From the NCBI GenBank assembly GCA_946800325.1, contig OX326960.1, positions 52,013,355-52,077,354 on the forward strand: a stretch of 64,000 bases of DNA. Reading direction: 5' to 3'. This DNA is from Luzula sylvatica. Lineage: Eukaryota > Streptophyta > Magnoliopsida > Poales > Juncaceae. The position numbers and the translations under genes are program-made. This document shows positions 15,094 to 62,795 of the stretch, piece after piece (within the stretch, counting starts at the first letter, position 1; each line of letters opens with the position of its first letter). The notes under the pieces were generated by a model. The model worked only from the letters and a program-made list of their open reading frames with translations. It did not search any database and had not been told where the DNA came from.

Positions 15094-16162
15094 TGCAGGG
15101 AATAATCCCGTCCCCGGGCCCGCGCAGCGGATATGGAGGTCCGGTCCGGTTCCCAAATTCCGAGATCACGCTTCGATATCGAGGGTACGATGCAAAGTAG
15201 GATAGACGATTACCAGCGTGAAATTGATCACGCACGACGGGTTGATCGCTCACATCCTTCTCTTCTTCGGTGTCACGTTGGTGACTAGCCCGTGCGTCCC
15301 ATACCACACGTCTCCCACCGTCTTGACACGCCTCCGGTTGTCTTCGTGCGTCCCATGTCCACACGCTTCCACAACCTTTCACTAATTTACTTCTCCGATT
15401 TGATCACAAACGAAGAGCCACAAAGTGCGAACTCCTCTACTCGTATCCACCGTGAGTCGTAGCACCTCGGTCGCGAATGCACCTGCCTAGACAATGCACC
15501 GGCAAACTTGCATGATTGCTTTCGATTCTCTAGACGGAGAAAACTCTTTTCTCCTCTTTTCTCTTTCTCTCTTTCTCTTCGCACTCTTTCAACAACTTGA
15601 TAAGAGTCTCTCTAATTTCTGGACAGAACTTGTCTTGTCTAGATTAGACTGAAATGACTAAAATGAGAGAGAGAAACCTCCTATTTATACTAAAATAGGG
15701 TAAGGATTGGGTGAAAGGTTGTGTATATCCAATATACACTTCCAGCAGCATGTTCGTTCGAAGGCAACATACAGTTCGTTCGAACGCACAACTTCTGTCA
15801 TGAGAATGTATAAAATCCTTTTTATACCCGAAGAGGTCCGTTCGAACGAACATCATGGTCCGTTCGAACGTATACTCTCTGTCTCATTTATGTGTTAATT
15901 CCATAATTACATTCGTAGTCATCCGTTCGAACGAACACTAAGATTCGTTCGAACGCAAAGTTTCTGGAATGATTGTGCATTAAACAATTCTATACACGTA
16001 GCGGCCCGTTCGAACGCACCATACGGTTCGTTTGAACGAACCACTCTCTGGAACTTAACTTTGCATAATCATATTATGCATTTAATCAAATCCATGAACA
16101 TCCATGTTCATATATCCTTATATGTACACATTTACCGTTGATCCAAAACTGTATTTCCTTCA
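15094..16162 (-). mobile_element. Copia 3' LTR, TGAAGG family, minus strand (copy C-left)
   Basis: On the minus strand the LTR starts TGAAGGAAATAC at 16162 and ends CCCTGCA at 15094. It is preceded by a purine tract (GTGGGAGAC) acting as polypurine tract, so this is the 3' LTR of an element whose body lies to the right. A TATA box (TATAAATA on the minus strand) lies at 15682-15689. Upstream of it are four pairs of palindromes starting at 15752/15774, 15836/15858, 15921/15943 and 16004/16026, each pair 22 bp apart and the pairs about 84 bp apart. Open frames inside the GC-rich part are not genes. Confidence 0.8.
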
Positions 16163-17645
16163 GTCTCCCACTCAGTTTCATATCCAACTAAAAGGTACTC
16201 ATGTATATCACATATACACTATATCAGAGAATCTAGCTTGCGTATCATATACGCTAAAGCCATGCACATCCCATGTGCAAAAGCTTGCAATCAAGCCCGA
16301 CATAGTACGACTCGTTGTGTGACCGTGTAGGTTCGTTTAACGATGGCAGTAGGCCGTTTCCAAGGCACTACAAGCCCATGAGCGGGATCTAGTCACTCCA
16401 TCATGGCTACCCATGTTAAAACGAAAAAATGATTGTGATCATTGTGCCTATCTCGAATAGCGGTCATTGGTTATCTTGTTACGCGATATCCGTTAATCAA
16501 AAGGCATGGTGGTAGTCATCCTTATAATTTGATTAACAACACTTATTCCCCGATTCCGAATTGAGTTAACAAATTACAATCGATATTAACCTTTAATATC
16601 ATTGACTATGGCCATAGTTTTCGTTAATCAACTCATCGAGTGGCGCCTATGAGATATATATTCCTTTCAGAATAAACAATTCATATCTTGGAGACTCACA
16701 TTGAATTTCGTGTTTCGGACAATACCCAATGATGACCGTTTTGGCCCCTTGTTACAGCAGGCGTAAGGTCATATCAAAGCATTGTGTTACGCACGTAACG
16801 CAATCAATAGTCCCCTCAAGTGTGAAGAACCTAAAATCCTATCCGTCGCAAGTCCATATATAATGACTAAACCATGTCATGGTCTCGCGGCTTTGGTCAT
16901 ATCCAATACATGTAACCTAACATATATCTACGTTCCCGATTCGACAAGCACCTTGTCCCATGATTAGCAAAACATAATCATCTCCTCGGCAAACGTACTA
17001 GTGTACACGTCCAGTCTATTATCTGATAATAGAAATGCTTCTCTCTTAAGCAAACTAATCCGCGACTAGGGATGTTTAGAAATGTAACTTTAGGTGTGAC
17101 GGTTTTGCTGCACATAATCATCAATTATGCCGACGTCCACACAAGCTCAAATCAGGGTTCATGTAACAATCATATTACACAACCCGCACGCAGTTTATAT
17201 ATAAGGTGAATGCATATTAATTTAAGTAAACAAAAAAATTTAAAGGGATGCATTCATATGGATTAAGTATTTGGGTGATACAACGTTTACCTATGGGTAT
17301 CTCCATACCCATAACCTGCGAGGACTATCGTATTAGATAACTACACTCTACTATCTTCTTCCTCCTCTAGGTATCTCCATATCCATAGTCATCGCATGAC
17401 AGTTACGCGCGACTAGAGAGAGCGGTTTTGTAAACGGGTCCGCACGTTGCTGCTAGTGTTAATCTTCATAAGGTTGGGAACATTTCCAATACCTATGATC
17501 ACATCTTTTCACAAAATTTCATGGATCAAATGAAAATTTTCAGAGTATTGGCTAGAAGTGGTTGTGACCTCGCTATGAATCTGTGTATCGCTAAATGAAA
17601 TTTTGAAAATCTTCATCAGGGAATTCGGGCAACCTTATTGCACAA
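16163..17645 (-). pseudogene. Copia RNase H end and long 3' untranslated region, minus strand
   Basis: This stretch is an inverted, diverged copy of 29520-30932. On the minus strand the piece near 17640-17390 retains fragments of the Copia RNase H C-terminus (IHEIL and GNVPNL), followed by about 1.2 kb of noncoding 3' region up to the polypurine tract. No open frame survives. It belongs to the element ending in the LTR at 15094-16162; its upstream pol is missing. Confidence 0.65.
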
Positions 17646-18780
17646 AGGAACTTACCCGAACCCCTTAAGCCATGGATATGTGTATCGCTAATTAGATACG
17701 AAGGAAGAGTTTCAAAATTATACCTCAGATTTAGTTCAAATCTGGTTGAAGGAAGCAAGGACGATCACTTCAAGCGATGCTCCAAATCGGCACCACACTC
17801 TAGAGGTATCCACACACGACTCGTTCGAATTGGATGTGAAGACTTCCGATGCTAGTCAGTCACTTCCTCCCTTCAGAAAATCTGCTTGCTTCTCTTTTCT
17901 TTCTCAAAGAAATTCAGCCAAGATTCACTCTTTTCTTTCTCTCTAAGAAAACTATTTTTTCTTCTTTTTACTCTCTAAATTCGAAATTTTATGAGTGCAA
18001 AATTCTGCACAAAAGATTGAGTGAACCCGTACTTTATGAAGAGGTTTGGTGTGTATTTATAATCAAGTGGAAAAACTCATATAATTCCAAACTCTATTCA
18101 TTTTCCCAAATGAATTGAATTCTGAATTTTAATATCATCCAACCACTTTTGTGGCATCCAATGCTCACAAAAATATCTTCATCAAATGAATTGAATCCTG
18201 GATTTTAATACCATGCATGTAGCATCTAATGCTCACACCTCTTCATGTTTATTTGATTTTCTGTGTCCAATCCAAACTTGTCATTGTGTGTGACCCTATA
18301 GGTTTATTTAATGTTGGCAGCATATTAAATCTCTATTTAACTATGCAAATCATAATTGGCCTCTAGCAAGGCATTATGACTACCCAAATTAAATAAATGA
18401 TTTAGGATCATAACCTATTTATCAAATAGACAAATTTCTAGCTCTCTTGTTCTTACGATATATGTTGATCAAAGGCATGGTAAAATGTCATCCTTTCTAA
18501 ATCAACTTAACTCTTTCCCGATATAGAATCAGATTGAATATTCAATTTATATTAACAACACATGTTAATCTTATTGAGTGTGGCCACGCATTTCCTTCAA
18601 TCCTAATTCATCAGAGGGCCCTGAGAGATATCTCTTTCAATCATGAAAGGAACAACTTCCACGCGATACTTATTTATTAGGCAAAAATGAGAAAGTGCAT
18701 CATTCTCCAAAGGTTGGAGAAAAATCCAACGAATTATTGGAAATTACATTTAAATGTAAATGTTCCGATAAGTTCCGAGG
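17646..18780 (-). mobile_element. Diverged Copia 3' region, further copy
   Basis: Noncoding. The block order at about 18285-18560 (gtgtgaccctataggttta, ggcctctagcaaggcatta, gatcaaaggcatgg) parallels 16319-16560 in the neighbouring element. It is therefore another, older 3' region of the same broad lineage. The boundaries are inferred from where similarity stops. Confidence 0.4.
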
Positions 18781-61945: not shown

Positions 61946-61957
61946 TGGTATCAGAGC
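61946..61957 (+). promoter_or_regulatory. Primer binding site of element E
   Basis: TGGTATCAGAGC one base after the LTR; initiator tRNA-Met type. Confidence 0.88.
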
Positions 61958-62174
61958 GATCGTCACGATTCGATCGTCGAATCGATTTCGAATAAGTGTT
62001 ATTCGGAATTTCATATAGAATTTTAGGACATAATCATGTAGTTGTAAAATTAGGACCATAGAAAACTTGCTAGTATTTGATCATAAGATGATCAAAAGAA
62101 TCTAGAAGTAATCATGAATTGTTCATGATTGATCGTTTTGGAAACGATCGAAAATCAGAAGTAAATATGAAATT

Positions 62175-62795
62175 CAGGTCTGGTGCGTCATGACGCACAA
62201 TTTGGTGCGTCATGGCGCACACGGGAAATCCAAGAGTTGGATCTGAGGCGTTACTCAGTCCGTCATGACGCACCAAGTTGTGCGTCACGACGCACTGTGT
62301 AAGTTCGTACCATCATGACGGACCGTTTGGTGCGTCGTGACGGTAGAAGCCCAAAAACTCTCTGGCAAACTGAACAAAATGGTTTTGTTCAGTGCGTCAT
62401 GACGCACCCCCTGGCGTCATGACGGACCAGAACAGTCCGTCGTGACGGTATAACCAACCGTCATGACGGAAGAACTTGAAAAGTTTCTGGCAAACTGGAC
62501 AAAATTGTTTTGTACAGTGCGTCATGACGCACCGTCTGGCGTCATGACGGTCAGTCACAGTCCGCCGTGACGGTAGTAACCAACCGTCATGACGGACGGA
62601 CCTGAAAAACTCTCTGGATTGGACAACAAAATTGTTTTGTATTGTCCGTCATGACGCACTCTCTGGCGTCATGACGAACGAGTGAGGTCCGTCGTGACGC
62701 ACCAAGTTGTGCGTCATGACGGAAGTCAAAGAAAATCCAATTTAGTACTGTGCATCATGACGGACGTTATGTTGCGTCATGACGCACCATGTAAT
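62175..62795 (+). repeat. Palindrome array in the leader of element E
   Basis: At least fifteen copies or half copies of GTGCGTCATGACGCAC-type sequence, often in pairs with 22-bp spacing (for example the pair beginning at about 62183), with variants that end in ACGGAC or ACGGTA. Noncoding. Confidence 0.85.

Follow-up and report, generated by a model that had tools for sequence, protein, structure and literature searches.

Phased palindrome arrays in retrotransposons of Luzula sylvatica and their match with clades of a PF20167 open reading frame

Several long terminal repeat (LTR) retrotransposons of Luzula sylvatica carry arrays of a short palindrome in their noncoding DNA, and one of them encodes a second open reading frame (ORF2) directly beside its array. 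Here, we describe the geometry of these arrays, the proteins encoded next to them, and the possible readers of the palindromes. The window, i.e., the whole stretch of DNA analysed, is 64,000 nt long (genome place C5:52013355-52077354). We refer to its palindrome-bearing pieces as A (LTRs A1 and A2), B (an element with two LTRs), C (C1 and the partial LTR C2), D (a solo LTR), and E. A site is defined as GTNCGT-N4-ACGNAC (16 bp), and its four central bases are called the core. An earlier reading of the same DNA, made without database searches (the sequence-only reading), had noticed this recurrent palindrome, which is real: the window holds 47 exact sites, compared with none in 10 dinucleotide shuffles. 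With at most one mismatch there are 72 sites, against 0–3 in eight shuffles, and with at most two mismatches 100, against 7–21. All sites with at most one mismatch lie inside arrays, except one at 27164 within element B. Several arrays are built of tandem repeats with a unit of 83–127 bp. The arrays are rich in CG, with 7.1–9.8 per 100 bp compared with 3.4 for the window. For the window as a whole (1-64000), the ratio of observed to expected CpG is 1.02. This is high for a retrotransposon-rich plant, and methylation here may be low or recent.

Element B (21335-28891, plus strand, like all its features given here) is of Copia type and is flanked by the target-site duplication TAAAC (21330-21334 and 28892-28896). 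Its 5′ LTR (21335..22742, 1408 bp) and 3′ LTR (27484..28891) differ at 3 of 1408 bases. The U3 region of the 5′ LTR carries an array with mostly TCGA core (21664..22125, with a copy in the 3′ LTR at 27813-28274), in which pairs of sites start at 21764/21786 and 21882/21904, 17-bp variants with a 5-bp centre lie at 21669/21691, and a TATA box follows at 22152. A gag ORF (22792..25161, PF14223, 790 aa) is followed by a linker array, also mostly of TCGA core (25370..25910), whose last site lies ~200 bp upstream of the ORF2 ATG. ORF2 itself (26102..26710) is PF20167-like; the window copy is shortened, with its C-terminal end in another frame at 26568-26843. Downstream are multiple polypurine tracts (27322..27481), with AGGGGGAG at 27322, 27339, and 27474; the third tract starts 10 bp upstream of the 3′ LTR. 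The polyC-rich integrase signal CCCCCCCTCTAGG is found near the 3′ end of the LTR (22714 and 28863), and a primer-binding site (PBS) of tRNA-Met type, TTGGTATCAGAGC, at the 5′ LTR junction.

Multiple polypurine tracts are a hallmark of Sireviruses (PMC2829016), and element B has several marks of that group: the AGGGGGAG tracts, the polyC signal, the tRNA-Met type PBS, and a large gag. Because of the three AGGGGGAG tracts and the polyC signal, we assign B to the Sireviruses by the criteria of Bousios et al. (2010, PMC2829016). An AT/TG attachment site, described over 20 elements (PMC2829016), is not present after the last tract in B, where TT precedes TG. The ORF2 family of B is high-copy, and the window element, with LTRs that are 99.8% identical, has gag and ORF2 and no pol domain recognised in its scanned ORFs; it was probably mobilised in trans. 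A run of 24 A (26966-26989) after the ORF2 unit resembles a poly(A) tail and may be a trace of slippage or of transcript capture. No relative of the B gag was found among 7,991 candidates scored in a protein-database search, and neither this gag nor a maize palindrome pattern had a match in viral contigs. In 14 matches to a Sirevirus junction pattern, both a PBS and, within 800 bp, a second AGGGGGAG were lacking. Piece D (37734-39112, minus strand, target-site duplication TTGTC) is a solo LTR of B type with a TCGA array in U3 (38338..38732, minus strand); it adjoins a Copia element with reverse-transcriptase, pre-integrase, and SH3-like pieces.

The remaining LTRs (A1, A2, C1, C2, and E) belong to a family other than that of B, and four of the five start with TGAAGGAAAT, C2 being partial. 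TCGA cores are found in the U3 arrays of A1 (15752..16041, minus strand, four pairs; LTR ~15090-16165) and A2 (31054..31344, plus strand, four pairs, one of them at 23 bp; LTR ~30932-31965, TATA box at 31407). CATG cores are found in C1 (33623..33828, minus strand; LTR ~33033-33950), C2 (34403..34513, minus strand), and E (61103..61326, plus strand; LTR ~60981-61945). C and E carry further CATG arrays in their leaders, at 32420..32764 (minus strand, downstream of the C PBS at 33022-33031) and at 62183..62787 (plus strand, after the E PBS at 61946). Little coding sequence is left in A, C, and E, with integrase-like letters recognised by eye near 63.9 kb. The three AGGGGGAG tracts of B are the window's only ones, with none on the opposite strand, and in a plus-strand search the polyC pattern was found in B alone; A, C, and E are incomplete.

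Positions of the arrays only partly bear out the sequence-only reading, which had placed them in LTRs, with looser pairs inside element B, and had put the pairs in U3, upstream of the TATA box where one is visible. For the LTR arrays this position holds: a TATA box (TATATAA in E) follows the array in A1, A2, B, C1, D, and E, and a TATA-like string also occurs within the arrays of A1 and D. The sites at 32420-32764 and 62183-62787, however, are in leaders behind a PBS rather than in LTRs, and those at 25375-25905 lie in the linker of B, directly before its second ORF. The arrays are therefore not restricted to U3. Between the pairs of A, D, and E there are AT-rich inverted repeats seen by eye (ATAAAATGGTTTTAT, ACAAAATTGTTTTGT; 31100-31300, 38500-38700, and 62370-62640).

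Sites within arrays occur predominantly in pairs whose starts are 22 bp apart. Among start distances of up to 60 bp, counted over both LTRs of B, exact sites gave 12 at 22 bp and one at 43 bp. Sites with at most one mismatch gave 22 at 22 bp, two at 23 bp, and four at 41–53 bp. Sites with at most two mismatches gave 28 at 22 bp, four at 23 bp, three at 21 bp, and two at 20 bp, with others elsewhere, including distances of 4 and 18 bp that are register shifts. When the 3′ LTR of B was left out, 26 of the 35 pairs with distances of 19–25 bp in array regions were at 22 bp. The earlier count of 22 in 23 LTR pairs at exactly 22 bp thus survives in the stricter site sets, whereas looser pairs range over 20–23 bp; 14 of its 20 quoted starts are exact sites, and the other six (15752, 15858, 16004, 31137, 33645, and 34403) have one or two mismatches. 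The same geometry is seen with exact half-sites. The junction ACGNAC-N(k)-GTNCGT (k = 0–14) has k = 6 in 22 and k = 7 in six of 31 cases, and the centre GTNCGT-N(k)-ACGNAC (k = 0–12) has k = 4 in 42 of 51, the other lengths including 5 (five cases), 3 (two), 1 (one), and 9 (one); none of the 51 has k = 7–8. The 6-bp spacers within pairs are variable, with 22 distinct sequences among 26 and a mean pairwise identity of 0.39.

Genome-wide (445 Mb, 37 contigs), exact pairs with spacers of 4–8 bp occur at 7,988 places, compared with five for the reversed control; for spacers of 0–30 bp, the numbers are 9,254 and eight. Hence, in the genome-wide search that the sequence-only reading had proposed, 86% of pairs with spacers of 0–30 bp (7,988/9,254) have spacers of 4–8 bp. 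Shuffles in the window and reversed controls in the genome rule out chance as the origin of sites and pairs. We also analysed a separate sample of 30 stretches (178 kb), taken from the first 4.4 Mb of contig 1 and one further place. It takes in families that are present in the window too, and it was chosen by spacers of 4–8 bp, such that its pair distances are biased and its other gaps are unselected. With exact half-sites, the centre is 4 bp in 223 of 280 cases, 5 bp in 37, and 3 bp in 12, and the junction spacer is 6 bp in 85 of 159, 3 bp in 22, 5 bp in 20, and 7 bp in 14. One TCGA-core family (L057, L064, L075, L076, and L078) has start distances of 24/19/22/39/23 bp or parts of that series.

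Outside the plant, the pair pattern was found in two viral-contig and 15 genome-contig stretches that are phage-like or bacterial as far as titles and the stretches read show. Metagenome genomes of Prevotellaceae and Bacteroidaceae (L003–L015 and L017) have pairs, mostly GTCCGT-N4-ACGGAC, at 22 bp, a distance that was set in the query; some have a third palindrome at 22 bp. Two viral contigs (L001, 3454-3545; L002, 1263-1346) each have four such palindromes, 22–30 bp apart, and those of L002 lie within a gene for 286 aa, reminiscent of iterons in a replication gene.

The cores fall into three groups, near variants included: TCGA-like, CATG-like, and a group of TATA, TACA, TGTA, and TGCA that was first met in the separate sample. 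The defining bases CGT-N4-ACG are present in all three. The groups hardly mix. None of the 143 classed pairs in the sample combines two groups (three further pairs have an unclassed member), and among 152 classed neighbours there are two cases of mixing. In the genome as a whole, 1,985 CATG-CATG pairs stand against none that combines TCGA with CATG (spacers of 3–9 bp). LTRs A and C agree in the start of U3 and in R-U5 (A1 and A2 are 74–77% identical to C1 in R-U5), and they differ in core, with arrays that cannot be aligned; the core can thus change while the geometry stays. Copying of one ancestral LTR, which the sequence-only reading had named as the alternative that would undo it, is a poor explanation, as three cores that hardly mix keep a similar geometry.

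The pair distance corresponds to two turns of the DNA helix, and the sequence-only reading had suggested that both palindromes face the same side of DNA. Gaps between successive sites agree with this, being phased at ~10.5 bp both in the window and in the separate sample. Common gaps in the sample are 52, 62–63, 73–75, 84–85, 95, 105–107, and 116–117 bp; off-series gaps of 39, 45–46, 70, 89, 97–98, and 112 bp also occur. Each gap length was counted once per lineage, which limits the effect of tandem copies, and the sample arrays were clustered by similarity. In the window, the vector strength R at 10.5 bp is 0.80 with at most two mismatches (15 classes, p = 5e-5), 0.66 with at most one (17 classes, p = 3.5e-4), and 0.52 for exact sites (14 classes, p = 0.019). 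In the sample, it is 0.49 for exact sites (32 classes, 12 families, p = 3.5e-4), 0.39 with at most one mismatch (51 classes, 13 families, p = 3e-4), and 0.41 with at most two (56 classes, 15 families, p = 1e-4); these p values may be too small owing to residual relatedness. With copies merged, the best periods in the sample are 10.6–10.9 bp, and a half-site version that does without the palindrome definition peaks at 10.6 bp in the window.

The window copy of ORF2 matches PF20167 (Transposase_32) weakly (E 0.046). Protein-database searches gave one relative (P0001, 61% identical), which covers PF20167 positions 4-175 of 177 (E 7e-10) with 39.5 bits, below the family's curated cut-off of 45 bits. 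Three of four genomic ORF2s pass this cut-off (L088, 49.0 bits; L086, 64.5; L089, 51.8), and a B-type copy (L039, 42.8) falls under it. For the B type, 150 of 920 genomic candidates were scored. These are 92–100% identical; the matched part is free of stops in 148 of the 150, and open frames are mostly 430–520 aa long. In the PF20167 family search, 150 of 418 genomic candidates were scored, and 14 control genomes gave no match. Purifying selection acts on ORF2, with dN/dS of 0.14–0.22 (eight pairs among eight proteins, two of the pairs with dS >1). By eye, the C-terminal segment of these proteins resembles a coiled coil; they also have a basic stretch.

ORF2 proteins form three clades that are 25–45% identical to one another: clade 2 is 26–28% identical to the B-type proteins (clade 1), and clade 3 is 44–45% identical to clade 2 and 25–29% to clade 1. 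B-type copies have TCGA palindromes upstream. The first three places taken from the PF20167 family list comprised two of clade 2 with CATG upstream and one of the B clade with TCGA. With two clades showing two cores, a third clade was expected to carry the third core, and this was before any clade-3 locus was read. Three clade-3 places, picked by length of the PF20167 match, have arrays of TATA, TACA, and TGTA. Three more clade-3 relatives (64–77% identity) and one more clade-2 place agree in core. One clade-3 locus has a presumed 3′ LTR 0.8–1.5 kb downstream of its ORF2, and the 14 sites in this stretch, which precede a TATA box, all have a TATA, TGTA, or TACA core.

Altogether, 29 loci were picked by ORF2/PF20167 match alone, leaving out the window's own copy (L036), and each was assigned the commonest core within ~1 kb upstream of ORF2 among sites with at most two mismatches. 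This core is the clade's core in 29/29 loci: TCGA in 20/20 of clade 1 (L037–L055 and L088), CATG in 3/3 of clade 2 (L086, L087, and L095), and TATA/TACA/TGTA in 6/6 of clade 3 (L089–L094). Since 19 of the clade-1 loci are near-identical copies, the independent evidence is that of three clades with some depth in each. Other cores occur alongside, with seven CATG sites among 14 in L086, two TCGA among four in L037, and 12 TATA/TACA among 15 in L092. Three clade-1 loci with TCGA (L060, L063, and L080) were found via their palindromes and are outside the 29, as is L058/L059, where the gene is split. This broken PF20167 gene belongs to a further clade; TCGA, TGGA, and TCCA sites precede it, and its pieces flank a CATG array.

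The two-turn pair, the whole-turn gaps, the variable spacers, and the unmixed cores point to protein dimers that sit on double-stranded DNA and touch one another. ORF2 is a candidate for the reader because it is encoded beside an array, is under purifying selection, and has clades that go with the core. In the mechanism we propose, the arrays would be double-stranded DNA platforms on which each 16-bp palindrome holds one protein dimer; two dimers would sit two turns apart, with further dimers tending to lie at whole turns, on one face and able to contact each other. The platforms precede the TATA box of the LTR and the second ORF, and some families have one in the leader as well. Most likely, the reader would be ORF2, made by the elements themselves and equipped with a PF20167 domain, a basic stretch, and the C-terminal segment, with a matching core for each ORF2 clade. 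It would hold the element's LTR and the ORF2 gene in an open or active state, in the way that VANC proteins (DUF1985 family) do for VANDALs, which are DNA transposons (Mutator-like elements, MULEs), and elements without ORF2 would ride on the ORF2 of others. We put the probability of this reading, in which ORF2 is a dimeric, family-specific, and clade-matched palindrome binder that opens its own LTR and gene in the manner of VANC while other elements ride along, at about 0.47. A more tentative and more general form holds that PF20167 proteins encoded by plant LTR retrotransposons in the place of the envelope-like (ENV-like) gene may be family-specific dimeric regulators of palindromes that co-diversified with the core, forming private channels that gene-less elements exploit. 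The geometric part of the dimeric regulator put forward in the sequence-only reading stands (22-bp pairs, variable spacers, phased gaps); that dimers bind, that ORF2 is the binder, that it counters silencing or activates, and that other elements ride on it is what we infer.

Several observations weigh against ORF2 as the reader. We know of no DNA-binding fold for PF20167. Two AlphaFold models have predicted local distance difference test scores (pLDDT) of 37 and 36.5; a long C-terminal helix was drawn, at useless confidence. Sequence searches of the PDB gave nothing useful, with one match at E 0.11. No ORF2 is seen in what the window contains of A, C, and E. Among the 30 sampled stretches, three have a long PF20167 frame (L060, L063, and L080) and L058/L059 has broken pieces; the TGTA-type stretches have no PF20167 frame. 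Clade 2 is represented at ~19 places with at least 54% identity, compared with 1,985 CATG pairs. With ORF2 as the reader, most arrays would have to be supplied in trans; arrays without ORF2 nearby require a trans-acting or host factor, and because such arrays are many, the weight given to ORF2 is somewhat lower, and that given to host factors somewhat higher, than it would otherwise be. Sireviruses without an ENV gene still have LTR palindromes (PMC2829016). The match of clade and core rests on three clades and may reflect mere descent within three lineages. The geometry has its own irregularities: one family is spaced at 19 and 39 bp, exact sites in the window give a 6.7-bp period (0.55) slightly above that at 10.5 bp, the best periods of the sample with copies unmerged are 10.8–11.0 bp, and the arrays of the C leader and of E are out of phase as wholes.

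Three other explanations have to be weighed. The arrays may bind dimeric transcription factors of the host, with the different cores mirroring different factors. Their geometry and position would suit any dimeric activator, a comparison of Sirevirus palindromes with the PLACE database gave mainly stress-related sites (PMC2829016), and the frequent lack of a neighbouring ORF2 also speaks for it. The match of core and ORF2 clade by clade is not expected, and Bousios et al. found no common binding factor (PMC2829016). The host family compared here was NAC: its sites likewise have inverted CGT/ACG half-sites bound by a dimer, and the NAC palindrome has been searched for as CGT-N(7-8)-ACG (PMC4081100). 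We rejected NAC factors as readers, as the centre here is 4 rather than 7–8 bp and, of 42 exact sites, only 12 match the NAC core T[GA]CGT in both halves. On balance, we consider host factors rather unlikely. The palindromes may instead work as hairpins of RNA or single-stranded DNA, seeding small RNAs, silencing, or RNA dimerisation. Folding of three arrays is indeed far better than that of shuffles (z −13.9, −14.6, and −16.8), and in maize the palindrome regions of Sireviruses are hotspots of small RNAs (Bousios 2016, as cited in PMC5311732 and PMC10760457). Good folding is expected of any palindrome array, however, and hairpins predict neither 22-bp pairs nor a 10.5-bp gap period. Pairing of the free positions 3 and 14 gave a mixed result: it occurs in 22 of 42 exact sites, compared with 14.9 when shuffled (P 0.014), but within core lineages it is no higher than shuffled (P 0.10 and 1.0). 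On this test we rejected hairpins as the sole explanation, and we regard the hairpin reading as improbable.

Finally, the arrays may be neutral minisatellites that arose by tandem duplication, with the pair distance, the phase, and the link to ORF2 clades simply inherited. The tandem repeats described above fit this explanation, as does the comparison of A1 with A2, in which whole palindromes (111/128 positions kept) are hardly better conserved than the sequence between pairs (114/137) and no better than R-U5 (465/531); conservation of the whole palindrome is thus not clearly over background. Inside the palindromes, by contrast, positions 2 and 4–13 are kept in 85/88 cases and the free positions 3 and 14 in 9/16, with the 6-bp spacers kept in 16/24, a split that was chosen after the motif had been seen. 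Between A and D, any homology of the sequence that separates the pairs is marginal, with 8 of 300 shuffles doing as well. Moreover, phasing persists when each gap class is counted once per family, and A and C are alike in LTR start and R-U5 and unlike in core. The minisatellite explanation is already strained, and we consider it very unlikely.

Near the palindrome cluster, remains of a MULE-type transposase (12409-14910; PF10551, with PF03108 under its cut-off) end just before LTR A1. A MULE or VANDAL source of the array at 15.7 kb was rejected, as the MULE-like ORF ends at 14910 and the array sits in an LTR related to A2. A tRNA gene lies at 47650-47721.

In 2010, both the function of ENV-like or extra ORFs and the reader of the LTR palindromes of Sireviruses were open (PMC2829016), and no later settlement is apparent among the papers that our literature search listed. 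If dimeric, clade-specific ORF2 proteins do read the arrays, LTR retrotransposons, like the VANDAL DNA transposons, would carry private sequence-specific regulators, and new modular DNA-binding proteins would be gained. The phasing by itself can be tested on existing genomes, i.e., on the Sireviruses of maize, rice, and grape.

Neither the relation to the palindromic repeats of Sireviruses nor the possibility that the regulator is encoded by the elements had been raised by the sequence-only reading. Bousios et al. (2010, PMC2829016) described palindromic repeats in 13 Sireviruses, with 8–32 per element, which precede the TATA box of the LTRs. The nine of these that have an ENV-like gene carry palindromes in the linker too, with 77 of 79 copies upstream of the gene. 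The repeats mark CpG islands and, with the exception of Tnd-1, have a CGG-CCG signature; classic Copia elements are said to lack them (PMC2829016). The arrays described here resemble them in comprising many copies of a short palindrome, in their position upstream of the LTR TATA box and of an ENV-like gene, and in being CpG-rich, and B and D belong to this group. The CGG-CCG signature does not apply here, although some copies hold TCCG...CGGA through their free positions. LTRs A, C, and E, which lack Sirevirus marks, also bear palindromes. A pair distance, phasing, and a link between motif and ENV clade are not reported in the available parts of PMC2829016, and among the titles and abstract openings listed in a literature search, none reports phasing or a link between PF20167 and LTR palindromes.

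VANC proteins bind short, tandemly repeated motifs, each family its own (PMC5735166). There, too, a protein encoded by the element targets a tandem-repeat motif in the element's own noncoding DNA, the motifs differ by family, and an unrelated element, AT9TSD1, has the VANC6 motif (PMC5735166, PMC10398659). The common feature is a motif that varies together with the protein, here as three clades with three cores across the 29 loci. The accessible parts of these papers do not describe VANC motifs as palindromes; here, moreover, the elements are LTR retrotransposons, and the protein, a putative binder, is of the PF20167 family. We do not file the system as a member of VANC, since both protein family and element class are different. 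Athila elements belong to Gypsy. An extra ORF with PF20167 similarity is known from them (sunflower Athila; Athila ORF1; PMC11728184). An additional PF20167-similar ORF in an LTR retrotransposon is common to both, whereas the gag here is of Copia type. In kind, then, the arrays are already known, as the palindromic repeats of Sireviruses. What appears to be new is their helical phasing, their presence in LTRs and leaders without Sirevirus marks, the three cores that hardly mix, and the match between ORF2 clade and core.

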